Shown in pieces: positions 2,163 to 46,893 of a DNA stretch of 64,000 bases. The stretch covers positions 62,001 to 126,000 of IMG/VR virus record IMGVR_UViG_3300024054_000362; one strand, given 5' to 3'. The notes below the pieces were generated by a model. The model worked only from the letters and a program-made list of their open reading frames with translations. It searched no databases and had not been told where the DNA came from. Source of the stretch: a virus. Each line of letters opens with the position of its first letter. Positions within the stretch are counted from its first letter, which is position 1. Position numbers and translations under genes: made by a program.

Positions 2163-2192
2163 AAGCTACGCGGTGGGGAGCTACCTTGTCAA
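2163..2192 (-). promoter_or_regulatory. sigma70-type promoter, TTGACA-N18-TAGCTT
   Basis: On the minus strand TTGACA (2192-2187) and TAGCTT (2168-2163) are 18 nt apart. The site lies across and just beyond the 3' end of the 2181-4160 gene. The same two boxes with the same spacing occur at 4999-5028, and each is followed at about +5 by the 16-bp palindrome. Confidence 0.7.
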
Positions 2193-4160
2193 ACGTCGTC
2201 GCCGTCGGTACAGCACGTAACCGCCCGCTCCTGCTGCGATTACGCTAGTCCCCACCACGACCCAGAACAACGGTTGCTTGGTGATCGGCAACGTGCCCGT
2301 CGCCTTCTGGAATTCGGTCAGTGCCACGAGCGACGTGCTCGATGGTAACGTCGCCGCAGTTTGCTGGACGACTTCAAAGGGTGCGCTTTGCTCAAAAGCG
2401 CCGAGCCTTGTATGAACTCGTTTCGCGATTCGAAAACGCTGGATCTTCGGATCGAATGCGGCAATCGACCCCCTCGGATAGATCGGCGTCGTAGCAAGCG
2501 GGACAACTGGTGGCGTCAACGGCAGGAGCACCTGGCCGCCAACGGGCGTCTTCCCCGGACAACCCGTCACGTCGTTGGCAGCAGTCGCCATCGTGATCAT
2601 GTTCGCGGAGATGTTCGCGAGGATCGACGCACGCAGCTGTAGGAGGTGATTCGGAATTCCCGTAACTGGTGTCGACGAACCCGCGCCGGGCGACAGCGGC
2701 GCCGGCTTGGGGAAGTCCATCGCGAGGAACTTCAAGATCGCATACACCAGCTCGGCGACGTCGAGCGCCGCGCAAGCCGCGCGACCCTGTGCCGCTGCCG
2801 ATACGACGGCGGCTGACGTCGCCGGTGTTGCGACGAGACCGGTTCCAGCAGCCGCGATCGCGACGACGACATCGTTGTTGATCAGTGCGCAGCCGAACTC
2901 CTTGATGGTGGAGTAGATCTCCCCGATGTTGTCTTCGATCCAATTCCACGCGTCCGACGCAGCGTCGATGACCGTTCGCGCAGCAGCTGCAACAGCATCG
3001 GCAACGTAGTCCCACGGGTACCGCGATTCGTCTGGATCGGGGACGCGCTTGATCACGAGCAGCTCGGTCTGATCGTTCCAGAACGCGCCCATACGCGAGC
3101 CGTCGTTGCCCTTGAAAACGAGGAACGCAATCGCGCCACGCCGAACACTCAGGTCGAGCGAATCACCTTCGTTTTTGTGTTTCTCCCACTCAGCGAGATC
3201 GCGTGCCGCGAGATTCGCGCGCGGAGCCTTACCGGAGTACGACCGTGACGCGCCCCAGTCCGCCGACACGATCTCCTTACCCTTGGGCCACTCACGGTGG
3301 TCGCGTACTGCCTCACGCGCCATGATCCCTGGCGAAGGTGGTGGCAGCACGGGCTGGCAACCGGCTGGCGACGGACACGTCGTCAGCTGCGCCGTCATCA
3401 ACGGATACTTGATCGTTCGATCGACCTTCTTACACCACTGCCCCGAACGAAGTCGCTCCCAGTGGCCCGGCACGCCGGGCGACGCCGCCCAAATGAAGTT
3501 TCCGTCCGCGCTACACGTTCCGACTTCTGGTGCTGCATTGGTCGCACAACCGCCGAGGCCAATTTCACCGTTTCCACCAAGCCCATAGAGCGGACCGTCG
3601 ATCTTGGGGTCGTAGAAACGGGGCGGACGCCAATCCGACGCGAGAACCGCCTCAGCAGATCCCAACCCTGACGACGGCGCAGGCGGCGGGATGACGGCAA
3701 GCAGTGTTGCGATCGGAGCTGCTGCAACGCTCAACGCGCTCTTCACGGCCTTCATCGCGTTGTCGATGCTGCTCGCAACACCGCCACCGCCTGGAATCAA
3801 CCGAATGATGCCGAGCAGCGCGCTGTAGACCGTATCGATGATCCACGGCGAGAGGACGACGTTGATCACTTCCTCGCCGTACGGGATGACGCTGATCGGT
3901 TTTTTGATCAGTCCAACGACGTCGACAGCAGCGCCGACGACAGGATGGATCTGCGTCCCTACGAACTTTCCCGTATGCGCGATCGCGATGATCGTGCTCA
4001 ACGTCATCGTCCCGTCGTAGCGCGCAGGATCGCATTCGAGCTTCCCACGCTCGAATGCAAAACGGCGGAGCTGCTCCTGCAGCGCCTTTACGCCCGCCGT
4101 GACACCCGTCGGAATCGCGGCGGCGTCACCGAGCAAGTCACCTTGGTTGTAGTGGAGCAC
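2181..4160 (-). CDS. large membrane-anchored virion-like protein, Arg-tail family (c)
   Basis: 659 residues, the largest member of the Arg-tail family. The N-terminus (about 18-60) resembles a peptidoglycan-binding helix bundle. Hydrophobic or amphipathic stretches follow at about 75-185, then a Cys-containing Gly/Pro-rich middle and another Ala-rich hydrophobic region at about 425-480. The shared beta module is near 585 (YPRGSIAAFDPKIQRFRIA). It ends KQPLFWVV, a hydrophobic segment and RRRRR. Start is GTG 4160, 8 nt after the upstream stop, with a poor ribosome site, so coupling is likely. Several internal hydrophobic stretches suggest a more intimate membrane role than its paralogues. Not recognised further. 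Confidence 0.75.
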   Translation of the reverse strand: MLHYNQGDLLGDAAAIPTGVTAGVKALQEQLRRFAFERGKLECDPARYDGTMTLSTIIAIAHTGKFVGTQIHPVVGAAVDVVGLIKKPISVIPYGEEVINVVLSPWIIDTVYSALLGIIRLIPGGGGVASSIDNAMKAVKSALSVAAAPIATLLAVIPPPAPSSGLGSAEAVLASDWRPPRFYDPKIDGPLYGLGGNGEIGLGGCATNAAPEVGTCSADGNFIWAASPGVPGHWERLRSGQWCKKVDRTIKYPLMTAQLTTCPSPAGCQPVLPPPSPGIMAREAVRDHREWPKGKEIVSADWGASRSYSGKAPRANLAARDLAEWEKHKNEGDSLDLSVRRGAIAFLVFKGNDGSRMGAFWNDQTELLVIKRVPDPDESRYPWDYVADAVAAAARTVIDAASDAWNWIEDNIGEIYSTIKEFGCALINNDVVVAIAAAGTGLVATPATSAAVVSAAAQGRAACAALDVAELVYAILKFLAMDFPKPAPLSPGAGSSTPVTGIPNHLLQLRASILANISANMITMATAANDVTGCPGKTPVGGQVLLPLTPPVVPLATTPIYPRGSIAAFDPKIQRFRIAKRVHTRLGAFEQSAPFEVVQQTAATLPSSTSLVALTEFQKATGTLPITKQPLFWVVVGTSVIAAGAGGYVLYRRRRRLTR

Positions 4161-5096: not shown

Positions 5097-5942
5097 ATGA
5101 CCGAAGCGGTACTCGGGCGCGCTTTCACCGTCGGTGCTCAGGCCGGCCGCGCGCTCGCGCGACGACATCGCGTCCGCAGCTCCCTCGGTGCAACCGACGG
5201 GTTGACTACGACTTCCAGTGAAAAGATCGCCATCGCTGCCATCATCGCAGGCGGTGTCGCCGTGCTTGGTGGTGCAATCGCGTATGGAATTGCCGCGCGC
5301 CGTCGTACGGCTACACTGCGAGACACGCTCGGTCGCGTCCAGACACGCGTCAGCAAGGGCGGCATGACGCTCACCCACCACTACGATCCAGAGATGCCGA
5401 TCCAGCAACGCGTCGGCATTCTCCAGGATCTCGTGTGGAAGGGCGTCACCAACCCACAGATGCGCGAACTTGCGCTCGCGATCACGGGCTACGGAACACG
5501 TGACGTCACCGTCGGCAAGCGGCGATTCCGTGTGAAGGGTGCGGGTTGTCCCGCGCGCGACGGACTTTGCGAGTCCGAGGCGGTCTACAACTGGACCAAG
5601 AACAACATCCGCTACACCGGCGACGTCGCGCCCGTGAAGATGCCAGGAGGTGACGTTGAAGGCGTCGACCTCTTCCAGGCACCGCACCGCACCGTCGAAT
5701 TCGGTGGCGAAGACTGCGATGGCCACACGGTCGTCACGACGACGCTTCTCTCACTCAACGGCATCCCTGCAAAGTTTCGCATCACCGCGCCGACGAAATC
5801 TAGTGACTGGGCACACATCTTCGGGCTCGCGGGCCTCCCGAAGACCAATCCGAAGCGTTGGGTGCCCTTGGATACAACCCTTCCAGGAAACATGTTTGGA
5901 CGAGAAGTACCCTCGGCCAAGCACATGGATTTTGTTGCTTGA
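5097..5942 (+). CDS. membrane-anchored transglutaminase-like protein
   Basis: 281 residues. One membrane segment at about 43-66 follows a basic N-terminus. The C-terminal domain has the transglutaminase-like (papain-fold) pattern: Cys207 in GGEDCDGH, His240 in SDWAHIF and Asp259 in WVPLDTT. In this superfamily such a triad supports peptidase, amidase or crosslinking activity. With a membrane anchor and virion-protein neighbours it may cleave or crosslink envelope or structural proteins, which is inference. Start ATG 5097 lies six bases after TAGGTT with no Shine-Dalgarno sequence, so the mRNA is probably leaderless. Confidence 0.85.
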   Translation: MTEAVLGRAFTVGAQAGRALARRHRVRSSLGATDGLTTTSSEKIAIAAIIAGGVAVLGGAIAYGIAARRRTATLRDTLGRVQTRVSKGGMTLTHHYDPEMPIQQRVGILQDLVWKGVTNPQMRELALAITGYGTRDVTVGKRRFRVKGAGCPARDGLCESEAVYNWTKNNIRYTGDVAPVKMPGGDVEGVDLFQAPHRTVEFGGEDCDGHTVVTTTLLSLNGIPAKFRITAPTKSSDWAHIFGLAGLPKTNPKRWVPLDTTLPGNMFGREVPSAKHMDFVA

Positions 5943-10830: not shown

Positions 10831-11580
10831 ATGGCCGGAGCAGTTGGCGTAGCGCCATCAACCACCACCCTCACGCTGCCCGACGGCAGCACCATCGCCC
10901 TCGCGGACTGGATCGACGACAAGCTGTACGGCTCGGTCCAGTTCCAGAACGGGCTCACCACGCCGCTGGAGGCCTACTCGTCGGGCCGCAGCCAGCCGAT
11001 CCCCGGCGGCCAGCGCGTGCAGACGCGCGTCGACACCAACATCCCGCGCAACGGCGACTCCGGTCTGCCCAAGGACTGGGAGATGCTCGTCTATGGATGG
11101 GGCATCGAGGTCGTGCGCGTGATGCGCGCGCCGGACACCGCACCGGATCGCCCGACGCTGAAGGACGACTTCTCGACGGTGATCCCGGGCGCGGGCGCCC
11201 CGATCGCGCCGTTCGCGCTGTCGGATCCGCCGATGCTCGTGACGCTGTTCCAGATGGATCGTGTGACGTTCTTCCAGTACGAGTACAACGCCAAGTTCTA
11301 CACGCAGGGCGTCCTCCAGGACTACCCGCAGGGACACGGCTACAACGTGTTCTCGACGAACACGGCGTTCGAGCTGGCGCAGAACGGCGTGCCGTCGCCG
11401 CGCGACCGCGTCGCGCTCGTGCTCCCCGTGCACGAGCGCGAGAACCTCGGCTACAAAGGCATCTTTCAGCCCGAGGCACCGGTGCGCATCGCGCAAGCTG
11501 CATCGGATGGTGCTACGGCACTGAACTTCGCGGACGTCAAGCTCTACAAATACGGTCTAATCAAAAGAACCGTGGTGTGA
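10831..11580 (+). CDS. candidate major capsid protein
   Basis: 249 residues, beta-rich with many aromatic residues, no membrane segment and no recognisable enzyme motif. Motifs include TLPDGSTIALADWID near the start and LVLPVHERENLGYKGIFQ near the end. Evidence for a capsid role: a structured leader, a good AAGGA ribosome site, very high G/C third positions suggesting strong expression, and the best terminator of the window directly after it (11609-11640). It could instead be another abundant virion protein. No jelly-roll fold can be proved from sequence alone. Confidence 0.6.
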   Translation: MAGAVGVAPSTTTLTLPDGSTIALADWIDDKLYGSVQFQNGLTTPLEAYSSGRSQPIPGGQRVQTRVDTNIPRNGDSGLPKDWEMLVYGWGIEVVRVMRAPDTAPDRPTLKDDFSTVIPGAGAPIAPFALSDPPMLVTLFQMDRVTFFQYEYNAKFYTQGVLQDYPQGHGYNVFSTNTAFELAQNGVPSPRDRVALVLPVHERENLGYKGIFQPEAPVRIAQAASDGATALNFADVKLYKYGLIKRTVV

Positions 11581-20006: not shown

Positions 20007-20561
20007 CTACGGCGTCAGCTCGGTGGCGAGCATCGTTGCTGTTCCCACAGCCGTGATCGCCGTAATGATGCCGGTATAGACCGGGAACGGGATTTCCCAC
20101 TCGCTCTGGTTCGCAAGACGCGCCGTGAAGCTTGCTGTCGTCGCTGCGGCGCCGAGCTTGACGTATGCCTGCTGGGCGCCGTTGTTCCACAGAATCGCAC
20201 CTAGGCGGTTCGCGTTCGATGCGAGGACCGTTGCGACGACGGTCGAGAGCGCGACGCTCGTGACTGTCGATGTGGCAGGTTGCGCGATTGTCGTGGTGAT
20301 AGAACCTGCGACACGAACGACGAGACCGAAGGCGCCCGCGCCCGGTGCGGCGTTCACGACCTCGGCGGTGTCGACGCCGTCCGTGACCAGAATCGGCCAC
20401 GCACTCGCGACAGCAGCTGCAGTGCCCTGATTCGCCGTAACCGTGCCGCTCACAGGCTGCGTGGTCGTGCCTGTCGGGTCGATGCGTAGCGGGTTGGCAG
20501 CGGTGCCGGTCTCGACGTCCGCGGAGTTGTACAAAACCGTGTAGGCGTTCGTTAACGACAT
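20007..20561 (-). CDS. virion surface protein with phage-structural beta domain
   Basis: 184 residues. N-terminus has the PVSGTVTANQGT and WPILVTDG motifs seen in many phage structural proteins. The C-terminal 100 residues form a beta domain (NRLGAILWNNGAQQAYVKLG, then EWEIPFPVYTGIITAI) that is repeated in the protein at 21866. ATG 20561 has a GAGGAG ribosome site; a TAGACT box followed by palindrome copy 5 lies upstream. Confidence 0.75.
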   Translation of the reverse strand: MSLTNAYTVLYNSADVETGTAANPLRIDPTGTTTQPVSGTVTANQGTAAAVASAWPILVTDGVDTAEVVNAAPGAGAFGLVVRVAGSITTTIAQPATSTVTSVALSTVVATVLASNANRLGAILWNNGAQQAYVKLGAAATTASFTARLANQSEWEIPFPVYTGIITAITAVGTATMLATELTP

Positions 20562-21865: not shown

Positions 21866-22270
21866 CTACGTCAACTCGGTGACCGTCGCGAAGCCACCAA
21901 CGCCGGGCCCCCAAACGCCTTCGATGACGCCCGTGTACGCGGGAAACGGCAGCTCGAAGTAGCTGTGCGGCCCCAGGCGTACCGAGTAACTAACGCTGCT
22001 CACACCGCCGCCGAGCTTGATGTACATGAAGCGGTTCGCCGAGTCGTTGTTGATCGTCGCGCCGAGCCGCGCGGGATTGGCTGCCAGATAGACTGCCGGG
22101 ACAGCCGACGCTGGGATCGTCGTCGTCACGCCGATAGACGGCTGCGTGATCGTGACGATGATCGGAATCCCGCCGCCCTTGAGCAGGACAACCATCGCCC
22201 AGTCGTCGGGCGCTGCAGGCGCGTCCTGACGAATCGTCGGTGACGTGACTAGCGCCCGCGCCGGGTCCAT
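21866..22270 (-). CDS. virion surface protein, beta-domain paralogue
   Basis: 134 residues. Homologous to the C-terminal domain of the 20007 protein: NPARLGATINNDSANRFMYI aligned with NRLGAILWNNGAQQAYV, and YFELPFPAYTGVI with WEIPFPVYTGII. Probably a capsid decoration or spike-base protein. ATG 22270 is six bases after TAGGCT (leaderless type). Confidence 0.7.
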   Translation of the reverse strand: MDPARALVTSPTIRQDAPAAPDDWAMVVLLKGGGIPIIVTITQPSIGVTTTIPASAVPAVYLAANPARLGATINNDSANRFMYIKLGGGVSSVSYSVRLGPHSYFELPFPAYTGVIEGVWGPGVGGFATVTELT

Positions 22271-23205: not shown

Positions 23206-23688
23206 GTGATCACGATGGTCGACAAACGGGTCGGCAGGGCGCTTGTCGCCGCTGTCTACGCGACCGATCGGCACATCTCGATCATGGAAGTCGCGCTGAA
23301 GGCATCACGACAAGGTCTTTCACCCGTCGACGTTGACACACCGAACGGTGTCGATGCGTTGATCGCAATCGCCGTCGCACTGATGGCCACACCGATCCTG
23401 TACCGACCGGTGATCGATCGACCGCGAGGTCTCTGGGCTAGCGCGGTCGACTGGGCACTCAAGATCGTCTCGTCCAAATTTGAAACGCCGGCTCAAGTTG
23501 CGGCTGCACACTGGCGCGCCGAGGTCGACCGTAAGCGCGAGATCAACCGTCGTATAGAGATGCTGAGACGTGCCGCGACCGTTTGCGGTACGGGCTTCGC
23601 CCAGAAGGCCACCGTAGACGCTCAAGCTCATCCAGAAGTTGCTCCGCTTCATGAGGTTCAAGATCAGCTCGGTAACGCGTCAGGATGA
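23206..23688 (+). CDS. RQGL-family small protein, copy 1
   Basis: 160 residues from GTG 23206 (ATG 23215 also possible). Residues about 35-65 carry RQGLSPVDVDTPNGVDALIA, shared with the proteins at 49302 and 52930. The family has a helical N-terminus and a second helix after the motif. The C-terminal 50 residues overlap, antisense, the end of the LAGLIDADG gene. Function unknown; three scattered copies argue for a real conserved role. Confidence 0.65.
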   Translation: MITMVDKRVGRALVAAVYATDRHISIMEVALKASRQGLSPVDVDTPNGVDALIAIAVALMATPILYRPVIDRPRGLWASAVDWALKIVSSKFETPAQVAAAHWRAEVDRKREINRRIEMLRRAATVCGTGFAQKATVDAQAHPEVAPLHEVQDQLGNASG

Positions 23689-24532
23689 GATCGACTTCTG
23701 CGGCCTTTTCGATCACGTATGGCCGAACGTCTTGTAGAAATTTGAAAACGGCCTCGCGCGCGATCAGACGATACATGATTGATGAACGTTCTCGCCCTGT
23801 ACGGGCGACGTACTGAAAGCATCCACCATAGACCTGCCAGATGCGTTTGACGCCGTCTGCAAAGGTTTGATCGAACGCAACACGTACGTGCCACGTACGA
23901 CCGATTTTCTGGACGTCGATGTTACCGTCGCCGTCGAAGTACCCCGCGAAATAGTTCAAGTCCGTTTCATTTGGTTGACGTACGTACTCGAACGTTCGCA
24001 ACTTGTTTCGCGGTCCGACAACGAACGCACCATCGCGCTTCGCTTGTTGATAGTGACAACCACACAAGCCGCGACAAACGGCCACGAAACGACAGCCTTC
24101 GTGACTGCACGAGCCGCGACGTTTCTTCGTCAACGGGACATCAGTTTTCTTGAGACGACGTCTCTTCGCGCGCGCAAGATCTCGCATCAACGCTCGGCCC
24201 ACTGTGCGCGGTAACCGCGATGCGAAACGATCCAAAACCATCTGTGCTTGATCACGCTTCTCACCGAGGAAAGGCAAAACGTCGTTGAGGAAACATGCAA
24301 CGACAGCGTAGCGACGCATTTGCCAGCACGTCTTGTTGCCACTACGACGTAATGTTCCACCGTAGATCTGTTGAATACGTTCGAGGACGATCGGCTTTAC
24401 TTGCTGGAAGGCGACAGTCGCCTGCCAGAACTGCTCGTGATTCGTCGCGACACGAATACAACCTTCGGCGTCGAAGTAGCCCGCAAGATATGCACGGAAG
24501 CTAGACGACGGGGCAGGCAAACCGCGTGTCAT
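23543..24532 (-). CDS. LAGLIDADG homing endonuclease with inserted zinc motif
   Basis: 329 residues. Two LAGLIDADG motifs: YLAGYFDAEG at about 15-24 and YFAGYFDGDG at about 193-203, each with the active-site acidic residue, so one chain forms the two-fold nuclease. Between them a basic region and a zinc-like cluster (CSHEGCRFVAVCRGLCGCHY, about 142-161) similar to clusters in phage HNH proteins. It lies 138 bp from, and divergent to, the capsid-like gene split by a group I intron, so it may mobilise that intron. ATG 24532 is six bases after TAAGAT (leaderless type). Overlaps the 23206 gene tail by 146 bp. Confidence 0.9.
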   Translation of the reverse strand: MTRGLPAPSSSFRAYLAGYFDAEGCIRVATNHEQFWQATVAFQQVKPIVLERIQQIYGGTLRRSGNKTCWQMRRYAVVACFLNDVLPFLGEKRDQAQMVLDRFASRLPRTVGRALMRDLARAKRRRLKKTDVPLTKKRRGSCSHEGCRFVAVCRGLCGCHYQQAKRDGAFVVGPRNKLRTFEYVRQPNETDLNYFAGYFDGDGNIDVQKIGRTWHVRVAFDQTFADGVKRIWQVYGGCFQYVARTGRERSSIMYRLIAREAVFKFLQDVRPYVIEKAAEVDLILTRYRADLEPHEAEQLLDELERLRWPSGRSPYRKRSRHVSASLYDG

Positions 24533-24633: not shown

Positions 24634-24670
24634 AACATCGATCGCGCCCGTGACTAGCGAGGAGGACAAC

Positions 24671-24797
24671 GTGGGCCGATTGCCACTACAATTTGCCGGA
24701 AAGGACATCACCTTTCGGATTCCGTACAACATCGCTGCTGAATTGGACGTTGGTCCAAATCTCAACGGTGTTGTCTTCCCCGAAGCGTCCAACTACT
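24671..24797 (+). CDS. capsid-like protein, exon 1 (gene split by group I intron)
   Basis: Encodes the first 42 residues plus one base of the next codon, from GTG 24671 (GAGGAGG ribosome site) to the 5' splice site; without splicing it stops at TGA 24797-24799. After removal of the intron the frame joins exon 2 (25118-25536) to give a 181-residue beta-rich protein. It has motifs such as DITFRIPYNIAAELDVG near the start. Size and strand-rich character recall the small single-jelly-roll capsid proteins of membrane-containing phages, but this is only a resemblance. No enzyme motif. Confidence 0.75.
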
Positions 24798-25117
24798 GAA
24801 CGCCGCCCAAGGTAACTTGGGACGAAAAACCACGTGAACTGCTGGAACCCCCTAAAGCTCGAACGCCACAGCGTGGCCGGCAACGGCGAGCGCGACGGCT
24901 TGAAAAGCGTCGAGATGTACAATGGGCAATCAGCAGCCAAGCGACTCGGCGACGAGTCGAAGGTTCAACGACTAGGGCATGGAGTCTCAGCGGCGCAGGT
25001 CGGTGAGATGGTAGAGCCCCACGAGTGCGTGGCAACCGGTCACACCGGTTGAAGATATAGTCTGAGCTACCGGGAAACCGGTAGGAGCCGCATAAACAGC
25101 GGCTCGCTAACACACCT
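24798..25117 (+). ncRNA. group I self-splicing intron
   Basis: About 320 nt with no ORF. Core elements seen: the J3/4-P4 signature GGGCAATCAGCAGCCAAGC; a stem CGACTCG/CGAGTCG; GGTTCAACGACTA (P7 5' strand GACTA 24970-24974) pairing with TAGTC (25058-25062) in AAGATATAGTC; P9 (25067-25084, GAAA loop); and a further hairpin 25085-25105. P1 can form with U24797 opposite G24811. The sequence CTG occurs at both junctions, so the boundary is ambiguous by up to three bases; in-frame splicing gives an uninterrupted protein. The terminal G normally expected would be G25118. Confidence 0.9.
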
Positions 25118-25536
25118 GCTTCCTCCACAACGTCGACAAACCGTTCGAGATCCACCGCGTCAAGATCGAGCTGACGGCCAAGGGCACCCCAGAAGGCTTC
25201 AGCACGCCGACTGTATTGGAGCCCCAACCGACGACGATGCAGCGTCGCGTGCGGCTCAACATCCTCGACTTCTCGAAGAACGAGAAGCTGACGAAGTCGT
25301 CGACGCTCGTCGGGCTTCTTCTTGCGCGCAACACGGGTGCGTGGGATCTCGAAGAGCCCTACACGATCGTCCGCAGCGAGGGCTTCCAAGTCGGCGTCGA
25401 CACGCTCGACTTTCCCGCCGTCGTCATCCTCGACGAGAACATCGAACCCGAGCGCGTGCTCGTCGAGTTCGTTCGCGTCGAGGTAAATCTTCAGGGCTAT
25501 CTCGACATCGTCGGTCCACCCAGCGAGGTCCGCTAA
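25118..25536 (+). CDS. capsid-like protein, exon 2
   Basis: Encodes about 139 residues (CFLHNVDKPFEIHRVKIEL onward, ending VGPPSEVR). It has no start codon of its own before residue 60 or so and opens just after an in-frame TAA inside the intron, which supports splicing. Alternating hydrophobic strands (RRVRLNILDFS, TLVGLLLARNTGAW, VLVEFVRVEVNLQGYL) suggest a beta barrel. It is followed by two small structural genes. Strong candidate for a capsid or penton-type protein. Confidence 0.75.
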
Positions 25537-29205: not shown

Positions 29206-29634
29206 ATGCTCGCCCTGCAACACGAAAATGCACAAATGATGTTCGGTCAGGCGACTGCCCCGAGCGTCACGCAACAAGTCACCCAGTCGATCGCAGACCG
29301 CATCGCGGCAATTCGCGCGAAGATGGTCAAGGTTGGCATCCCGGCCGCCGTCGGCACTGGCGTTGTGGCAACGTTCGTGTCCGCGGGCGCTTTCGGACTC
29401 GCACGCACCGAGCGCGTCTGGACGCCGAGCCTCTTCCTCGGCGGTGTCGCCGTCGCAGCAGGCCTCATTGCAACAGCGCTGGCTGCCAAGGTCGCCAAGG
29501 ACACAGCAACTGCGCAGGCGACCGCGGCGGCGACAGCACCTACTGCAGCGCCTGCAACTGCACCGGTCGTCGATGCCTCAGCAGTCGCGACGGGCAACGG
29601 CTTCGGCTTCGGCTTCGGCTTCGGCGGCTACTAG
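29206..29634 (+). CDS. two-pass membrane protein with Gly/Phe tail
   Basis: 142 residues. Helical N-terminus (VTQSIADRIAAIRAKMVK), two Gly/Ala-rich membrane segments (about 47-66 and 78-97), an Ala/Thr-rich spacer and a C-terminal GFGFGFGFGGY repeat. AAGGAGATA upstream of ATG 29206. Candidate abundant virion membrane protein. Confidence 0.7.
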   Translation: MLALQHENAQMMFGQATAPSVTQQVTQSIADRIAAIRAKMVKVGIPAAVGTGVVATFVSAGAFGLARTERVWTPSLFLGGVAVAAGLIATALAAKVAKDTATAQATAAATAPTAAPATAPVVDASAVATGNGFGFGFGFGGY

Positions 29635-30034: not shown

Positions 30035-30364
30035 TTAATGATTGGTTGCGGCCTCGCGCGCAGCGATACCGAGCAGTCGCGCGATTTCAGAATCTGGAGC
30101 CCCGCCTTCGAGACGAGCAACACCCGTTGGGCGTCGCAATACAAACGTGACCGGAACGTTGTACACGCCCAGTCGCGTCGCGATCTCAGCACAGCGGGGG
30201 TCGTTGGCGTCGTACATGAAGATGGGGACGTGTTGGAGTGCAGGGACTTGCTGACGGTAATGCTGCACGGCGCGAATGAAGCGGGGTTTGTACTCAAGAC
30301 ACGCTTCACAGCCTGGAATCGTAAAAACCAAGATCACGACACGCGCTTCGACGAGATTTGTCAC
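30035..30364 (-). CDS. thioredoxin-like protein
   Basis: 109 residues from GTG 30364. Redox motif CEAC in VFTIPGCEACLEYKPRF, the following strands, and the cis-Pro loop YNVPVTFV fit the thioredoxin fold. A phage thioredoxin may form disulphides in structural proteins, several of which here are Cys-bearing. The GTG overlaps the TGA of the upstream HTH gene (GTGA), so it is coupled. A broken second copy of its N-terminus lies at 30488-30574. Confidence 0.85.
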   Translation of the reverse strand: MTNLVEARVVILVFTIPGCEACLEYKPRFIRAVQHYRQQVPALQHVPIFMYDANDPRCAEIATRLGVYNVPVTFVLRRPTGVARLEGGAPDSEIARLLGIAAREAATNH

Positions 30365-30501
30365 GGAACGTGTCTCCAGCTTTGGCCATTCACAGCACTT
30401 CGACAGGTCCACGCCGAGACATTGAACTTACGCGCAAGCGCAGCCCAGGACAACCCGCAGTCTCTCGCCTGACGCAGTTCAACCATTTTAGAACGCGCCA
30501 C
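30361..30501 (-). CDS. small HTH peptide, possible nuclease remnant
   Basis: 46 residues from GTG 30501. The helix-turn-helix WAALARKFNVSAWTCRSAVN and the end GQSWRHV resemble the C-terminal HTH tail found on phage HNH homing nucleases. No nuclease core remains. It sits exactly between a truncated and an intact thioredoxin start. May be a small regulator or a relic. Confidence 0.55.
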   Translation of the reverse strand: MARSKMVELRQARDCGLSWAALARKFNVSAWTCRSAVNGQSWRHVP

Positions 30502-30733: not shown

Positions 30734-31396
30734 ATGAGTCTCACCCAAGATACGGACTTCAAGTGCGTCGACAAAGCGGGCAACCCGCTGAACTTCTGCT
30801 TCGGGATCGGTGCAGCAAACCACACGCTGCTTCAGAAGTTGCAACAAGCAGTCAACCGGCTCGCGAACCTCGGTGGATTCCCCGCGTTGACCGTCGACGG
30901 TTTTATCGGACCTGATACGGTGGCTGCCGTTCGAAAGGTGCTCTTCATCGGCCCCGTAGGCAGCCTTCCTTGGACCAAGGAGACAATCTCCAACAACGCG
31001 TCTGAAGTCATCGACGGGTTGAACAGTATCGCCGCCGATCTTCAAACCAGGGGCGACGTACTAGCGCCCGAGGGTACGCCCGTCGAGCCGACCATCCAGA
31101 CGATGGCGACGTCGACCGGTATTCCTCAAGAAAGCGCAGCTGACATCATCGCCGCCGCACTCGGACCGGCACCGAGTAACCAAAAAACCTTCAAGCTCCT
31201 GCCGTGGATCTTGGGTGGCTTGGCGGTCGTCGCCGCTGTCGGCGTCGGCGGCTACTTCTACCACCGCCACAAGGCGCGTCAGCAACTCGGATGGGGCGAC
31301 GACGATGATTTCGGAGACGATGATCTCGGAAACGATGATCTCGGCGACGACGATCTCGGCGACAACGACTTCGACGGCGGTAGCGAGGAGCTATAG
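30734..31396 (+). CDS. PG-binding-like membrane protein, tandem copy 1
   Basis: 220 residues. N-terminus has DFKC and FCFGIG, then a peptidoglycan-binding-like helix bundle at about 30-70 (LQKLQQAVNRLANLGGF, LTVDGFIGPDTVAAVRK). A helical spacer, one membrane segment (KLLPWILGGLAVVAAVGVGG inside, about 157-180) and an acidic tail of repeated DDDLG units follow. Copies 2 and 3 come directly after. Family knowledge: such domains bind cell-wall peptidoglycan. Inferred role: virion membrane protein contacting the wall during DNA entry. Confidence 0.8.
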   Translation: MSLTQDTDFKCVDKAGNPLNFCFGIGAANHTLLQKLQQAVNRLANLGGFPALTVDGFIGPDTVAAVRKVLFIGPVGSLPWTKETISNNASEVIDGLNSIAADLQTRGDVLAPEGTPVEPTIQTMATSTGIPQESAADIIAAALGPAPSNQKTFKLLPWILGGLAVVAAVGVGGYFYHRHKARQQLGWGDDDDFGDDDLGNDDLGDDDLGDNDFDGGSEEL

Positions 31397-31398
31397 CC

Positions 31399-32037
31399 GT
31401 GAGTCTTCTCCCCGAGCAGTTCCCACTTCCCGACAGTCTTGTCCCTGGAACAGACTTCAAGTGCGCCGATCGTGCCGGGACGCCGCTGAACTTCTGTTTC
31501 GGAATCGGCGCCGGCAACCACGCGACCCTTCAACTCCTACAGCAGGCCATCAACCAGTTCTCGGTTCTGAAGGGCTTCGCACAGCTCACCGTCGACGGTT
31601 TTGTTGGTACCAACACCGTCAACGCCGTACAAGCCATCCTCCCGATCGATCCGCCATGGACCAAGGAGCAAGTCACGGAACGTGCAACGGGCCTGTTGAT
31701 ACAGATCGACAACGCTGCAAGGCAGCTAGAACAACAAGGACACACGCTCGCATCAATCGGCGAGCCCGTCCCTCCAGCACAGAGCGTGGCGTCGACCGGG
31801 GTTCCGTCGTCGACCGGCAGTGAAATCGTCGCTGCGACGACAGCACCGACAACCGCAGCAGGCATCGCTGCCGTTGTCCCAAAGTCGAAGTTGCTACCGT
31901 GGATCCTCGGCGGTCTCGCTGTTGTCGCCGCGGTCGGCGTCGGCGGTTTCTTCTATCATCGAAACAGACTCCTGAAACAGGCGGGATGGGGTGACTACGA
32001 CGACGCTGACGACCTCGGCGCCGACGAGGAGGACTGA
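31399..32037 (+). CDS. PG-binding-like membrane protein, tandem copy 2
   Basis: 212 residues from GTG 31399, 2 nt after copy 1. Same order: DFKCADRAGTPLNFCFGIG, helix bundle with LTVDGFVGTNTVNAVQA, a spacer, the nearly identical membrane segment KLLPWILGGLAVVAAVGVGG, then an acidic tail (DDADDLGADEED). Closest to copy 1; clearly a tandem duplication. Confidence 0.8.
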   Translation: MSLLPEQFPLPDSLVPGTDFKCADRAGTPLNFCFGIGAGNHATLQLLQQAINQFSVLKGFAQLTVDGFVGTNTVNAVQAILPIDPPWTKEQVTERATGLLIQIDNAARQLEQQGHTLASIGEPVPPAQSVASTGVPSSTGSEIVAATTAPTTAAGIAAVVPKSKLLPWILGGLAVVAAVGVGGFFYHRNRLLKQAGWGDYDDADDLGADEED

Positions 32038-32040
32038 TCC

Positions 32041-32775
32041 ATGTGGGGTGCTGCGCTCACACAAAACGTCGACTTCAACTGCAACAAGGACATCTGCTTT
32101 GGAATCGGTCCCGTCCACGACAAGTACAAGCTGTTTCAGCAAACGCTGAACCGCTTCGCACCGCTCGGGAAGGGTTTCAAGCCGCTCGATGTCGACGGAT
32201 TCATCGGAGATCTAACCGTCGCTGCCGCAAACGCGGCTGCTGAAGTTGCAACACTACCGTCACCAGGTCTCACGCACGAAGCCGTCGCAGCCAGCGTCGA
32301 CGACTTCACGTCGCAGCTGTCGAGTATCATCGACATGCTTGTCACGGCAGGCGTGATCGCGCCGATCAACGATGCCGAACGCGCCAAGATCGCGGCCACC
32401 GATACCGACCTCACCAAGCCACCGCCGGCTGCTGCAACCGCCATCGTCGGCACATCGACGCCGTCGCCTGAGATCGACGGTGTGATCCAACAGACCGTTG
32501 CCGCGTGTCGTGCCAGTCGTTCGAGTCCTGCGTGTACCCGCGCCAAGACGATGTGCAAGAGCATCCGCGGGACGCCCCAGGCTTCGCTCGCCGAAGTCAA
32601 AGAAATCTGCGACTCGACTTCGACACCGCTCTGGGTGTTCCTGCTCGCAGGAGGCCTCGGCGTAGGCGCCATCATCGGAATCGGCGTCCTCCACGCCCGT
32701 CGACGTCGCGCCGCCGAAGCCGTGGCACTCGGGAACGATGCACGTCCGGCCCGTCGGTATAAGCGCGTTCGTTGA
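32041..32775 (+). CDS. PG-binding-like membrane protein, tandem copy 3
   Basis: 244 residues. DFNC, ICFGIG and the bundle with LDVDGFIGDLTVAAANA mark it as the diverged third copy. It has an extra Cys-containing helical segment (about 155-195) before the membrane segment (about 200-220), and a basic instead of acidic tail (RRRRAAEAV, ARRYKRVR). The opposite tail charge suggests a different partner on the inner side. Confidence 0.8.
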   Translation: MWGAALTQNVDFNCNKDICFGIGPVHDKYKLFQQTLNRFAPLGKGFKPLDVDGFIGDLTVAAANAAAEVATLPSPGLTHEAVAASVDDFTSQLSSIIDMLVTAGVIAPINDAERAKIAATDTDLTKPPPAAATAIVGTSTPSPEIDGVIQQTVAACRASRSSPACTRAKTMCKSIRGTPQASLAEVKEICDSTSTPLWVFLLAGGLGVGAIIGIGVLHARRRRAAEAVALGNDARPARRYKRVR

Positions 32776-32777
32776 GC

Positions 32778-32793
32778 GATCGCTTGCGCGATC
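32778..32793. promoter_or_regulatory. 16-bp palindrome, copy 9
   Basis: GATCGC, TTGC, GCGATC, upstream of TAGGCT and the start at 32828. Confidence 0.7.
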
Positions 32794-32827
32794 AAGTTTG
32801 TGGTAGGCTCTGCTAGAGGCACCCCAC

Positions 32828-33772
32828 ATGCTCGCAACCTATGTCAACGGTTACGCGTACGGCTTCGGACAGGCGCCAACGTCGTTCGTGCAGTACTTCG
32901 CCCAGATGAGCAAAAAACGGCAACTGGGTGCAGGATTTCAAGGACTAGGGCAACCGGCGAACGACTTTATCGCCTTCAACAACGGCCAGTCGTCACCTGC
33001 ATCCTTTGTCGGTGACCCTGCAGGGTTCGGTCTCGGCAATGTGGTCTTCTGCAACAAGGAAGCAGGGACCAACCGTCCGCAGTGCATCTTGAATCAGACC
33101 GGTGATGGAGCGCGTGCACCCATTCGTGCAATGCAGCTAGCAGCTGATCGGATCATCACACTCATCAATCAAGGCCTTCGTAACCAACTCGCAGGCGACC
33201 AACTGTGTGCACAGTTCCCGCGCGCAGATGGTTCCGGTACGTTCGAGAACTGTGCTCCGATCGGTCAGATTCAAGACAATCCAATCGCGAGCGGCGGTGG
33301 CGGCGGAATCGACGGCATTGTTGGCGACACCACACGAGGTGTCGTCGGCCTAGCACTGACATTTGCCGGAGCCCTCAAACAAGTTCCTCTGGATGCCCGA
33401 GGGCGGAACGTGATGATCGCGATCATCGAACCGCTCAACAACGGCATTCAGGCCGAAATGTCTGGCGATATTGCGGCCTACCTGAACGATGTCGCCGACA
33501 ATTTTCCAGCGCTTGTTGAAGCATTCAAGGCACGCGGCGGTACGTCGATTCAGACGGTGATCGATCCCGCCACGATCGAAGCGCTTCCATTCGTGCTTCC
33601 GGCCGCTGTCGCCGGCACGTCGAACAAGAAGGCGATCATCGCTGCGACGGCCGCAATGATCGGCCTGACCTCGGTCGCAGCGTACGCTGCCGGCGTGAAG
33701 AAGCCGATGGCGCTCTACGCCGACAAGCCCGCGCTCGGTCGCGGTCGTCGCCGTCGCTCGCGGAGGTACTAG
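32828..33772 (+). CDS. membrane protein with PG-binding-like motif and basic tail
   Basis: 314 residues. Four cysteines in the middle, a peptidoglycan-binding-like half motif GGIDGIVGDTTRGVVGLAL at about 157-176, a helical C-terminal half, one membrane segment (about 268-287) and a tail GRGRRRRSRRY. It follows the three-copy cassette but has its own palindrome and promoter. Probably related in function to that cassette. Confidence 0.75.
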   Translation: MLATYVNGYAYGFGQAPTSFVQYFAQMSKKRQLGAGFQGLGQPANDFIAFNNGQSSPASFVGDPAGFGLGNVVFCNKEAGTNRPQCILNQTGDGARAPIRAMQLAADRIITLINQGLRNQLAGDQLCAQFPRADGSGTFENCAPIGQIQDNPIASGGGGGIDGIVGDTTRGVVGLALTFAGALKQVPLDARGRNVMIAIIEPLNNGIQAEMSGDIAAYLNDVADNFPALVEAFKARGGTSIQTVIDPATIEALPFVLPAAVAGTSNKKAIIAATAAMIGLTSVAAYAAGVKKPMALYADKPALGRGRRRRSRRY

Positions 33773-33810: not shown

Positions 33811-34269
33811 ATGCTCTCCGTGACGCAATCCCAACGCGTCGAGGATAGAAACGGCGAGAGCGCCAACGAACTGATCGCGGCGTGGGGGCGGAGCGGCTAT
33901 CGCTACGGCTTCCCCGACTTCTACGCAGCGCAGTTCCCGGTCCGTCCGATGTACTACGACCAAAGCTGCATCTACAACGGTGTGATCGGTCGGCACTACC
34001 CGGACGCGCAGACCGGCCGCTACCACTACATGTTCGATCAGAACATGTACCTGCAGCCCGGCAACTACGATCCCAACCCGTTCCCGACGCGGGGGTTTGG
34101 TCAGACCGAACCAGCGTCGACACCGCCGGTAACACAGGCCGCCGTTCAGACCCCGTCATCAGGTACAGCCCGCGCAGGTCGCGTCGCAATCGGTGTAGGG
34201 ATCACGGCAGTTCTGATCGGCGCCGGCATCTTCATCAGCTCGCGATCGCGGCGTTCTTCCCATCGCTAG
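33811..34269 (+). CDS. single-pass membrane protein, Tyr-rich
   Basis: 152 residues. N-terminal 85 residues are rich in Tyr, Asn, Gln and Asp (YRYGFPDFYAAQFPVRPMYY), then a Thr/Pro linker, a membrane segment (about 127-145) and a basic tail. GGAGAGG upstream of ATG 33811. Probable minor virion membrane protein. Confidence 0.7.
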   Translation: MLSVTQSQRVEDRNGESANELIAAWGRSGYRYGFPDFYAAQFPVRPMYYDQSCIYNGVIGRHYPDAQTGRYHYMFDQNMYLQPGNYDPNPFPTRGFGQTEPASTPPVTQAAVQTPSSGTARAGRVAIGVGITAVLIGAGIFISSRSRRSSHR

Positions 34270-43592: not shown

Positions 43593-44687
43593 ATGCCACT
43601 GTCGTTCGAGAAGACCGAGCAAGCACTGCTCGCTTGCGTCAAGACCCAGATCACGCCCGTCGTCGTCGGACCGCCCGGAATCGGCAAGACGGCGATCGTC
43701 CGCGCCGTCGGCGTCAAGGCCAAGCTGCCGGTGCACGAGCTGTTGGCATCGAACTGCGACGCCGTCGACATCGCCGGTTTCCCGTTCGTCGATGCCAAGA
43801 CCGCAACGCTGAAGCGCGCACTGCTGCCGGAGATCGAAGCCTGTGTCAAGGCGCCCGGCATCCTGTTCCTGGACGAACTGACGGCTGTCCCGCCGAGCGT
43901 ACAGGGGCCGCTGATGCGGCTGCTCCTCGAACGATACGCAGGTGGGACTCGTCTGCACCCCGAGAGTTGCGTCGTCGGCGCCGCCAACCGTCCCGAAGAG
44001 TGTCCCGGCGGCATCGAATTGTCGGCAGCCAGCATCAACCGCGTGATCAAGATGGTCGATTTCATGCCGACCCTCGACGAGATCCGTGGCTACTTCGAGC
44101 GTGTCGGCGATGCTGGTACGCGTCTCCACGAGGAGATGGTCGATTTCGCAGCCACGCTCGCGGTCAACGCAGACCTTCTCGACATGTCGCCACCACGCGC
44201 GTCGATCGATGCCGGTGCGCCGTTCGCGTCGCCGCGCGCGTGGGATCGAGGACTCACGGTGTACGCCAGCTACTGCGACGCGGCCAAGGTTGGATTCAAC
44301 CTCGGTCAGAACGAGGATGACGTCGGCTTCGCGCTGCTCTCCGGCGCTGTGGGGGAGACCAAGGCGGTCGCGTTCTTCGCGATCCGCAAGATGCGCAAGC
44401 ATCTACCGAGCATCGACGACATCCTCAACGATCCTGTGAAGGCCAAGGTCCCAGAGAAGAAGGACCAGCAGATCGCAGCCGTTGGGCTCATCGCGCGCGT
44501 CGCCGAGAAGGATCTCTGGGCGTCATGGATCTACGTCGAGCGCCTCCTGCCCGAGATCAGTGCCGCGTGCGCGCGTGTCCTCATGACCAAGAACGACCCC
44601 GGCAAGTCGAAGTGGCTCATGCAAGGCAAGAACGCGCAGGTCAACGGCCTCGCTGCGATTCATCGTAGCATGAACACCAAGCCGTAA
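43593..44687 (+). CDS. MoxR-family AAA+ ATPase
   Basis: 364 residues. Walker A VVGPPGIGKT at about 24-33, Walker B GILFLDELT near 90, sensor-like AANRPEE near 133. The C-terminal 120 residues are helical. MoxR ATPases act as chaperones that insert metals or remodel VWA partners; the next gene encodes exactly such a partner. Found as a pair in many bacteria but rarely in viruses. Confidence 0.9.
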   Translation: MPLSFEKTEQALLACVKTQITPVVVGPPGIGKTAIVRAVGVKAKLPVHELLASNCDAVDIAGFPFVDAKTATLKRALLPEIEACVKAPGILFLDELTAVPPSVQGPLMRLLLERYAGGTRLHPESCVVGAANRPEECPGGIELSAASINRVIKMVDFMPTLDEIRGYFERVGDAGTRLHEEMVDFAATLAVNADLLDMSPPRASIDAGAPFASPRAWDRGLTVYASYCDAAKVGFNLGQNEDDVGFALLSGAVGETKAVAFFAIRKMRKHLPSIDDILNDPVKAKVPEKKDQQIAAVGLIARVAEKDLWASWIYVERLLPEISAACARVLMTKNDPGKSKWLMQGKNAQVNGLAAIHRSMNTKP

Positions 44688-44710
44688 CTCAGCTCGTAGG
44701 AGCGCCGTCC

Positions 44711-46024
44711 ATGTCCAATCGCAACAAGAGCCCCCATCAGGTCAACACGTCGACGGAAAAGCCGCTGCGGCCTCGCGTGGTTGATCCGGCTGTTGCGGCG
44801 GCACTGATTTCACGGTGCAAGGCCAACGCACTGTATTTGGGATGGAAACAGACGCCGTTTTTCCTGCCCGCGGTAGGACGCGTCGAGTTCCGTCCCACAA
44901 CAGAAATCCCGACCGCGGCTGTTGATTTGCGTGGACGGATCTACGTCAACGTCGATTTCGCTGCCAAGCTGAAGGACGCTGAGCTGCAGTTCGTGATCGC
45001 ACACGAGCTGATGCACCTCCTGTTGCTCCACCACGATCGTCGTGGACACCGCGATCGACTGAAGTGGAACATCGCCACCGACCTGATCATCAACCGTACG
45101 CTCAAGGACGTTGCTGACGCTGTCGGCGCGGGCGCGTTCGAGATGCCCAAGGTGGGACTGATCGCCGACGAGAGCCAGGCTGGCTTGACTGCAGAACAGC
45201 TCTACGCCGACATCCCAGATCCGCCGGCCGAGATGCGCGCAGCCTTTGAGGCTGGGACAATCCCCGTCGGCCAAGGGTGTGGTGTCGACGACGGCACCGA
45301 TCCCAACGGCAACCCGGATCCCGATGATCCGGACGGTCAAGAAGCCAAGACGCCCGACCAGCTCAAGCGTGATTGGCAGGAGTGTGCGGTCCAGTGTCAG
45401 ATGCAAGGCCGTCAAGCTGGTGATGTCGCAGGCAACATGCTCGCCGACATTCTCGACGTTCCCGATCCTCTCGTGCGCTGGTCCGAGGTTCTGCGTGGTG
45501 CGCTTCTCCGTGCCATCGCCGAAGCCGGCCGCGACGATGTGTCGTGGCGACGCCGCTCGCGACGTAGCACGGTGGAGTTCATCCTACCTGGCGGCGTCAA
45601 CTACCGCTGCAAGGCAGCCGTCGTGATCGATGCGTCCGGATCGGTCGACGATGAAGCTCTTGCACGCTGTACCGCCGAGACCACGGCCATCGTCAACCAC
45701 TGTGGCGTCGCAGTCTTTCTCGTCGTTCACGATCACGCCGTACAGTCTGCTACCTGGATCCGTCCTGGCGTCAAGTCCAAGGTCCATCAGGACATCAAGA
45801 AGGAAATGAAAGGCCGTGGCGGTACCAGCTTCGACGAGGCGTATGATCGTGTTCAAGAAGAAGGCGAAAAGTTCAACGTCATGGTCCACCTGACTGATGC
45901 AGAAATCGGCGGTGTGTGGCCTCCACGTCCATCGTCGGTACGGCGCCTCGTCGTCGCACTGGTGGGTTCGGCTTGCAAAGACAACTGTCCGCCGGATGCA
46001 CGCGTCATCGAAGTCGAAATCTGA
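44711..46024 (+). CDS. VWA-like metallopeptidase (DUF2201 type)
   Basis: 437 residues. N-terminal zinc-peptidase-like domain with HELMH at 98-102 and WNIATDLIIN after it, an acidic Asp/Pro linker (about 195-215), and a C-terminal VWA-like domain with VVIDASGSVDD near 310 and GGTSFDEAYD near 375. This is the DUF2201 architecture (putative metallopeptidase plus VWA-like). 23 nt after the MoxR ATPase, so they form a two-gene module. Substrate unknown. Confidence 0.9.
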   Translation: MSNRNKSPHQVNTSTEKPLRPRVVDPAVAAALISRCKANALYLGWKQTPFFLPAVGRVEFRPTTEIPTAAVDLRGRIYVNVDFAAKLKDAELQFVIAHELMHLLLLHHDRRGHRDRLKWNIATDLIINRTLKDVADAVGAGAFEMPKVGLIADESQAGLTAEQLYADIPDPPAEMRAAFEAGTIPVGQGCGVDDGTDPNGNPDPDDPDGQEAKTPDQLKRDWQECAVQCQMQGRQAGDVAGNMLADILDVPDPLVRWSEVLRGALLRAIAEAGRDDVSWRRRSRRSTVEFILPGGVNYRCKAAVVIDASGSVDDEALARCTAETTAIVNHCGVAVFLVVHDHAVQSATWIRPGVKSKVHQDIKKEMKGRGGTSFDEAYDRVQEEGEKFNVMVHLTDAEIGGVWPPRPSSVRRLVVALVGSACKDNCPPDARVIEVEI

Positions 46025-46040
46025 AGCTGGCACGTCGCAG

Positions 46041-46065
46041 CGTCGGTGCTTACTGATCACCGACG
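46041..46065. other. hairpin between metallopeptidase and next gene
   Basis: Stem CGTCGGTG/CACCGACG with a nine-base loop and no T-run. It might attenuate or process the transcript. Confidence 0.4.
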
Positions 46066-46089
46066 AGGGTTGAAATCTAGGGAGAAATC

Positions 46090-46893
46090 ATGAGCAAGAG
46101 CAAGAAGAGCGAGAGCGGTGTGTTCCACTTCAGGCCAGGGTGGATGATCGTCGACTGTTCGTCGGCGAGCGGCGGCATCCAGTACGATCGGGAGCTTCTC
46201 AAAGAGAAGTCGATCAACGAAGGCAACGGCATGCAGGCCGATCACAAGACCCGCAAGACCGTCGACAACGTCGAATTCTGCGCGGCGGTCGATGCTGTCG
46301 TGAAAAAGGTCGATTACGTGCTGCGTAAGCACTGCGCGCGCACCGAGATGGGCTGGTTTGCCGACGACCGTGCCCTCCAGAGGGTCAAGGCTGAAGTCGC
46401 CGAGATCGAGGCCGAAGCCGAGGAGCTGAACACGGCGGGTGCGCGCCGCGCCAAGAGCGCACGCCGCGCCAAGATCCGCGTCGTGCCGCTCCGACTCGAT
46501 CTCGCGAAGCCGGAAGCCGTGCAGGAGATCGCGCACACGATCCGCTCGATTCTGATCGAGCTGCGCGACACGCTCCGCGCCGGTGACCTGGCGAACCTTC
46601 ACAAGCTCAAGATCCGCTCGAAAAACCTCCACCAGCTGGCCGTCGGTTTTCAGTCGGACGCCATCCGCTTTGCGCTCGATCGCGTACCGCTCGCGGCAAA
46701 CGAGATCCGCGAGGAGATGAAGAACGCCAAGCGCGGTGCGCAGAACGACGGCAAGAGCAAGGAGAGGGTCGAGAGGGACGTCAACGCCGCCGCCAGGCGG
46801 GCAGGCGCCAAGGTCGACATCCAGGCGATCGAGGCGGCGATCATGCACTTCACCGACGACTCCGTCGACGCCGATCTCGACGAGGCTGCGTAG
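46090..46893 (+). CDS. coiled-coil protein
   Basis: 267 residues. A 40-residue N-terminus, then long charged helices with heptads (VKAEVAEIEAEAEELN, Ala/Arg-rich stretch, LRAGDLANLHKLKIRSKNL). GGGAGAAA before ATG 46090. No family recognised; may be a scaffold or partner of the MoxR/VWA module upstream. Confidence 0.7.
   Translation: MSKSKKSESGVFHFRPGWMIVDCSSASGGIQYDRELLKEKSINEGNGMQADHKTRKTVDNVEFCAAVDAVVKKVDYVLRKHCARTEMGWFADDRALQRVKAEVAEIEAEAEELNTAGARRAKSARRAKIRVVPLRLDLAKPEAVQEIAHTIRSILIELRDTLRAGDLANLHKLKIRSKNLHQLAVGFQSDAIRFALDRVPLAANEIREEMKNAKRGAQNDGKSKERVERDVNAAARRAGAKVDIQAIEAAIMHFTDDSVDADLDEAA

Follow-up and report, generated by a model that had tools for sequence, protein, structure and literature searches.

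Tandem membrane-anchored proteins with a peptidoglycan-binding-like fold in a group of large, probably tailless bacterial viruses

The virus record IMGVR_UViG_3300024054_000362 of IMG/VR (221,422 bases) contains a row of genes whose products combine a wall-binding-like domain with a membrane anchor. The window analyzed here is a stretch of 64,000 nucleotides (bases 62001-126000 of the record), and coordinates refer to it unless the record or another stretch is named. Positions 30734-33772, singled out in a first-pass annotation of the sequence, are filled exactly by four head-to-tail genes, g1-g4, with intergenic gaps of 2, 3, and 52 bases. The products of g1, g2, and g3 are tandem paralogs with an N-terminal domain that very likely adopts a peptidoglycan-binding-domain fold; g4 is probably related to them but has diverged much further. 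The favored explanation, to which a probability of slightly below one half (about 0.48) is assigned, is that g1-g3, probably together with g4, serve a virus with an internal membrane and a distant relation to SSIP-1 as tail-anchored virion proteins, which grip the wall and act at genome entry alongside membrane-anchored enzymes that cut the wall. The fold is strongly supported and the location in the virion membrane is likely, while wall binding, a role in entry, and mixed oligomers are what we infer beyond that.

Paralogy and history of the copies

The first gene, g1 (30734..31396, + strand), encodes 220 amino acids (aa): an N-terminal Cys11/Cys22 hairpin and the peptidoglycan-binding-like domain (approximately residues 1-110), followed by a low-complexity linker, a single C-terminal membrane helix (residues 157-184 in the model), and an acidic tail. 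Its nearest paralog, g2 (31399..32037, + strand, 212 aa, GTG start), has the identical anatomy and also an acidic tail. The third paralog, g3 (32041..32775, + strand, 244 aa), has a membrane helix of its own, a basic tail, and an extra Cys-rich stretch. In BLASTP comparisons, g1 and g2 are 52% identical (E 1e-52), and g3 matches g1 at E 2e-12 and g2 at E 2e-9.

The features that the first-pass annotation ascribed to these genes are present to different extents. The VDGFxG-type motif was recovered as VDGFIG in g1 and g3 and as VDGFVG in g2, and the proposed division into acidic (g1, g2) and basic (g3, g4) tails is confirmed by net charges of -14, -6, +8, and +9, respectively. FCFGIG, claimed for all four genes, is present in g1 and g2, reads ICFGIG in g3, and is absent from g4. 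The nearly identical membrane segment is likewise confined to g1 and g2 (89% protein identity over residues 154-180), the segments of g3 and g4 being different. The possibility that gene conversion recently homogenized the g1/g2 helix was rejected: third-position identity in this segment is just 0.46, no higher than elsewhere. The likeness therefore appears to have been kept by selection and not by recent copying, which suggests helix packing. Of the 23 family members identified here, four have tails with a net negative charge: g1, g2, and one each from the relatives G018 and G010.

The copies have diverged to 35-52% identity and carry opposite tail charges, and all their reading frames are open. 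In the phylogenetic tree, g1 pairs firmly with g2, as do the first copies of the relatives G002 and G013 with each other and their second copies with each other, and the remaining forks are weak. The Cys-rich insertion is common to g3 and the third G013 copy. Tandem arrays are found only in close relatives, with three copies in G013 and two in G002; elsewhere there is one copy at the locus. A single triplication is too simple an account, since copy number turns over (1, 2, or 3 across relatives). One relative also has the g3-type copy, g1 and g2 are a lineage-specific pair, and acidic tails are lineage-specific as well.

The fourth gene, g4 (32828..33772, + strand, 314 aa), has a C-terminal membrane helix and a strongly basic tail, with orthologs in G002 (39% identical) and G013. 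Its proposed kinship with g1-g3 is not visible in BLASTP (E above 1) and emerges only when family profiles are compared with each other. The three g4 orthologs match the family profile at P 5.4e-5 over 117 columns; after removal of the membrane parts, hhalign gives P 1.6e-4, whereas none of 31 control clusters does better than 0.11. The link is carried by IDGIVGDTT, conserved as YDG[IV]VG.ST in the two orthologs. The single g4 sequence of the record is inconspicuous, with P 0.014 and rank 10 of its 333 proteins.

A clearer extra paralog lies beyond the window at record positions 16031-16633 (L004); its match (E 1.3e-4 among 333 proteins) was obtained before it was added to the family profile. 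A further member is located at record positions 130765-131649 (P 4e-4). A long proline-rich G002 protein matches the family at P 3.6e-8. Its possible counterpart in the window, a long protein with a C-terminal helix and an RRRRR tail (2181..4160, - strand), reaches P 0.028, with two short stretches similar, and may be a proline-rich member of the family. Tape-measure matches in PHROGs for this protein (E 0.0018) and for g4 (E 0.041) look like low complexity.

Similarity to peptidoglycan-binding domains

Taken singly, the window proteins score below Pfam cut-offs: PG_binding_1 matches g1 at E 0.0079 (16.8 bits vs a cut-off of 23), and g2 and g3 also remain under theirs. Of 22 family members, 15 are hit by PG_binding_3 at E<=1 (the best at 3e-4) and five by PG_binding_1. 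The 22-row family profile retrieves solved wall enzymes from the PDB (6v3z at 1.9e-4, 7rum at 6.7e-4, and 1lbu at 0.0076); the human membrane proteins that appear further down that list, starting at 0.012, are matched through the linker and helix. Run on the 22-member alignment, AlphaFold2 yields a model with pLDDT ~95 over most of residues 1-110, consisting of a hairpin with Cys11 and Cys22, helices at 27-42, 60-70, 82-87, and 89-105, and the long helix at 157-184. When the model was compared with known structures by VIA-align, eight of the first nine rows were enzymes with peptidoglycan-binding domains (9h68 at Z 7.1, 4xxt, 6tci, 5anz, 7rum, 1lbu, 6v3z, and 8da2; Z 4.1-7.1), the other being Lon protease. 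Lower rows are mostly unrelated helical proteins, with the wall enzyme 6v40 at rank 12, and further families may match beyond the rows listed. The best matches by structure and by PDB sequence include SleC, SleB, endolysins, and the S. albus Zn DD-peptidase. A tblastn search with the third G013 copy matched 44 phage records, and the 10 listed are all annotated as endolysins, lysins, or a GH25 (best E among those listed, 0.008). The first-pass annotation had made its proposal depend in part on similarity to wall-binding folds; such similarity was found by Pfam, by the PDB profile search, and by structural alignment, and these results, taken together with tblastn, make the predicted fold very likely.

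The family shares the predicted helical (three-helix) fold of PG_binding_3/PG_binding_1 domains (e.g., 6v3z Sen1395, 9h68 SleC, 6tci SleB, and 1lbu), together with the LQ..LN...VDG.IG..T core of muramidases, lysins, and spore cortex enzymes. Unlike these enzymes, its members have no catalytic domain, possess a C-terminal membrane helix and a charged tail, and in part carry an extra N-terminal cysteine hairpin. The family is very divergent, with a mean column identity of 22%; Q37, N41, D55, G59, T62, and one linker proline are invariant. Two or more cysteines are present within the first 60 residues of 14 of the 23 members.

Membrane anchors

A C-terminal hydrophobic window of at least 1.5 is present in 19 of the 23 members, and 19 have a net-positive tail. 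None of the 23 has an N-terminal hydrophobic (signal-peptide-like) stretch, so the domain is expected on the cytosolic face of the host membrane. In the record as a whole, a Kyte-Doolittle scan found a C-terminal helix in 27 of 333 genes. Among the 258 genes of 90 aa or more, the hydrophobic stretch is C-terminal in 32 and N-terminal in 11, and 18 tails have a charge of +3 or more. C-terminal anchors are also found on enzymes: an M23 peptidase (L008:14681-15379, 6.6e-23), a GDSL enzyme (L008:12987-13754, 7.8e-8), and a C39 enzyme (L009:508-1122, 1.8e-16).

Next to g4, the conserved gene g5 (33811..34269, + strand) encodes a protein with a C-terminal membrane helix and a basic tail; a 70-residue stretch is 73% identical in G002, and similarity of g5 to the g1-g3 family was not found. 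Another conserved C-terminally anchored protein, without a notable Pfam match, is encoded beside the M23 and GDSL genes (L008:13726-14694), with homologs in G002 and in a stretch from Gemmatimonadota. A start of the form M[LFI] soon followed by an [FLY]G pair occurs in 10 of the 27 C-terminal-helix genes vs 13 of the 306 others (e.g., window positions 29206 and 32828, L004:6272, and L008:15381); this pattern is possibly a shared start signal.

Distribution among related viruses

Searches with g1 or the g1-g3 alignment in IMG/VR, with g1 in the phage collection INPHARED, and with g1-g3 as DNA in PLSDB found nothing, and relatives were reached solely via more conserved neighboring genes. The GP88-like protein of the record, at first guessed to be the capsid protein and found not to be one, brought in five contigs, one of which, G002 (195,792 bases), has two tandem copies. 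G002 is collinear with the record in the thioredoxin-like gene, the family copies, g4, and g5. It also conserves, at 90%, a 249-aa protein (10831..11580, + strand), the most conserved structural-type protein and the candidate for the major capsid protein. A search with the latter retrieved 15 IMG/VR records (54-92% identical) and two contigs from bacterial metagenome-assembled genomes (MAGs).

For each of these 15 IMG/VR records, the family (A3) profile has a match at E<=0.01, with best values no weaker than 5.4e-5; it matches none of the three fragments that were found by GP88 and do not encode the 249-aa protein; secondary matches containing stops were not counted as members. At least one member is also present in the Actinomycetes MAG contig and in the Gemmatimonadota MAG chromosome stretch. 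The family is thus linked to the virus group carrying the 249-aa protein. The thioredoxin-like CxxC gene (30035..30412, - strand), oriented divergently to g1, has a homolog in 15 of 18 group genomes, one of them weak (1.4e-6), as counted from the available stretches.

The Gemmatimonadota stretch (CP070815.1, ~3.665-3.720 Mb; L039, L071, and L072) is a provirus-like representative of the group, in which, on one side, viral genes start beside ordinary metabolic genes. Its one family copy lies ~20 kb from the 249-aa protein and has a profile E of 0.099; it was accepted on motif, anatomy, and place, with the caution that MAG assemblies can be chimeric. The stretch also keeps together, at 32-45% identity, three genes from window positions 43593-46893, which encode a MoxR-like ATPase, a VWA-type metallopeptidase-like protein (both recognized by eye), and a third product.

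Character of the virus group

The group is probably tailless with an internal membrane, as indicated by the lack of terminase and portal, homology to the SSIP-1 proteins gp34 and gp48, and the placement of SSIP-1 in reviews. The terminase large subunit (PF03237 and phrog_2) and the portal (PF04860) were each found in none of 16 records, which may be fragments; the positive controls for PF03237, PF04860, and phrog_2 matched in 6, 4, and 13 of 14, respectively. When 880 predicted proteins were clustered, 32 families had at least four members; their profiles match SSIP-1 gp34 (E 1.6e-16) and gp48 (E 2.1e-7), both labeled 'structural protein' in the annotated SSIP-1 record. The window encodes a transglutaminase-like homolog of gp34 (5097..5942, + strand) and two members of the gp48-like family, recognized by profile homology (20007..20561 and 21866..22270, both - strand). 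Among 50,697 phage records, the gp34-like protein matches SSIP-1 alone (two records of it; 7e-6). Other SSIP-1 matches, none better than 0.0005, seem to reflect common domains or chance. The facts on SSIP-1 are drawn from its annotated record and from PMC6356626, PMC6260650, PMC5332951, and PMC4958249; reviews count it with the tailless viruses that have an internal membrane and vertical single beta-barrels (PMC4958249, PMC5332951, PMC6260650).

Several SSIP-1 structural proteins also end in one hydrophobic helix. SSIP-1 differs in its genome, which is 5 times smaller, in its other structural proteins, which lack a convincing match (gp44 is weak, at E 0.0028, with the same profile as gp48), and in the domain of interest, which was found only in its endolysin and not in a membrane-anchored protein. 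The 249-aa protein has no sequence match in the PDB or the phage collection and no profile match to SSIP-1 proteins; its low-confidence model is all-beta, and the best Foldseek match is SPV1 (E 0.11), with P23-77 VP16/17 far down. A DUF87 protein, considered as a possible packaging ATPase of the HerA/FtsK type, is encoded by 4 of the 16 records (with 573 aa in the record studied here), and a weak match (E 0.7) was obtained to the packaging ATPase of Natrinema versiforme icosahedral virus 1. The only genomic hint of the internal membrane is the 27 genes with C-terminal helices. Among the titles and abstract openings surveyed in the literature, there is no account of tailless phages this large or of membrane-anchored wall-binding proteins in tailless phages.

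Two further observations concern the genome. A group I intron (Rfam RF00028, E 3e-16; 24763-25084, + strand) splits a conserved structural-type gene into pieces at 24650-24799 and 25237-25536; the gene is uninterrupted in G002, and a LAGLIDADG-like reading frame at 23543-24532, on the strand opposite to the intron, was recognized by eye only. At the end of the record, Cas3c-like (3.7e-60) and Cas5c-like (4e-25) genes (L011:11853-14721, record 217853-220721) seem to belong to a type I-C CRISPR-Cas system that runs off the contig.

Proposed role and alternative explanations

A wall-contact or DNA-delivery role is plausible for the family because it accompanies the 249-aa protein in all 15 records and because homologs of SSIP-1 virion proteins are present. 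Each protein joins its predicted N-terminal peptidoglycan-binding-domain fold, through the flexible linker, to a single C-terminal membrane helix, which a short charged tail follows. By analogy with PRD1-type assembly, a vesicle derived from the host inner membrane would turn the cytosolic face outward, toward the capsid, and the tails toward the DNA packaged inside. At infection, the vesicle would be driven as a tube across the envelope, and the domains would grip murein, holding the tube where similarly anchored wall hydrolases such as the M23 peptidase work; the C39 and GDSL enzymes share the same kind of anchor. The duplicated copies would form mixed, helix-packed assemblies. As a guess, the thioredoxin-like CxxC protein might make the hairpin disulfide. 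We know of no sequence relation between the tube proteins of PRD1 and the g1-g3 family.

In PRD1, the single-pass proteins P7/P14 and P32 and the multi-pass P18 are candidate scaffolds of the tube, and the cell wall is digested by virion enzymes (PMC3782422). The resemblance is that P7/P14, P18, and P32 are virion membrane proteins proposed to form a wall-piercing tube; the difference is that the accessible text of this source describes no wall-binding domain for them, and it reports no significant similarity of these candidates to known proteins (PMC3782422).

Several points weigh against this explanation. The best structural Z of 7.1 is below 8, the level about which the tool warns. Foldseek found no PDB match at E<=0.001, the best being 6v40 at 0.12 followed by many ferritin rows; in a viral library there was no match below E 0.034, and the top match at that value is a mimivirus protein whose name refers to a minor capsid domain and which is not a wall protein. 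If the domain is cytosolic, its cysteine pairs would require an oxidant, and 9 of the 23 members do not have two early cysteines. The sole SSIP-1 match to the family is the endolysin gp31, which is not a membrane protein. The model of the capsid candidate is poor (pLDDT 51) and has no structural match below E 0.1; since this protein is unmatched, the assignment as tailless with an internal membrane depends on SSIP-1 homology and absent markers. Location in the particle and binding to the wall are predictions from sequence.

The same fold might have been repurposed, so that the domain no longer binds murein and fastens the internal membrane to the capsid's inner surface, with the copies serving different capsid positions. 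This resembles the role of PM2 P3/P6, transmembrane virion proteins between vesicle and capsid that are proposed to template capsomers; the available part of the source does not mention a wall-binding fold for them (PMC6356626). The constant company of the capsid candidate (15 of 15 records) would fit such a role, as would sequences that are very divergent (mean column identity 22%) yet retain a few invariant positions. The consistent closeness to wall-enzyme domains and the membrane-anchored M23 peptidase encoded in the same genome make it rather unlikely. Proteins of the infected host envelope that never enter the particle, acting in lysis control, superinfection exclusion, or wall remodeling, could equally combine a wall-binding-like domain with a membrane anchor, and the matching domains do belong to lysins. 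However, with a signal-peptide-like start in none of the 23 members, such proteins in the host membrane would expose the domain to the cytosol, and the family co-occurs with conserved structural-type genes; this explanation is improbable. Neutral or dosage-only duplication, with three copies doing the same job and no hetero-oligomeric meaning, would agree with the single copy at the locus in most relatives and with the variable copy number. It is hard to reconcile with open copies at 35-52% identity and opposite tail charge, or with retention of a g3-type copy in two genomes, and appears very improbable.

Implications

How membrane-containing tailless phages bring a lipid tube through murein is an open problem. 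A recognizable wall-binding fold that is membrane-anchored and conserved with a capsid candidate makes the contact step testable via single purified domains. It is tentatively proposed, at less than even odds, that a jumbo (at least 221 kb) tailless internal-membrane lineage, several times the size of SSIP-1, crosses the wall with a tail-anchored kit, in which duplicated wall-gripping domains and wall-cutting enzymes share one C-terminal anchor and, being loaded without signal peptides, would come to lie on the outer face of the virion vesicle. Of greater consequence is the virus group as such, a broad assemblage of bacterial viruses, probably tailless, whose genomes reach at least 221 kb and whose range apparently extends to Gemmatimonadota.

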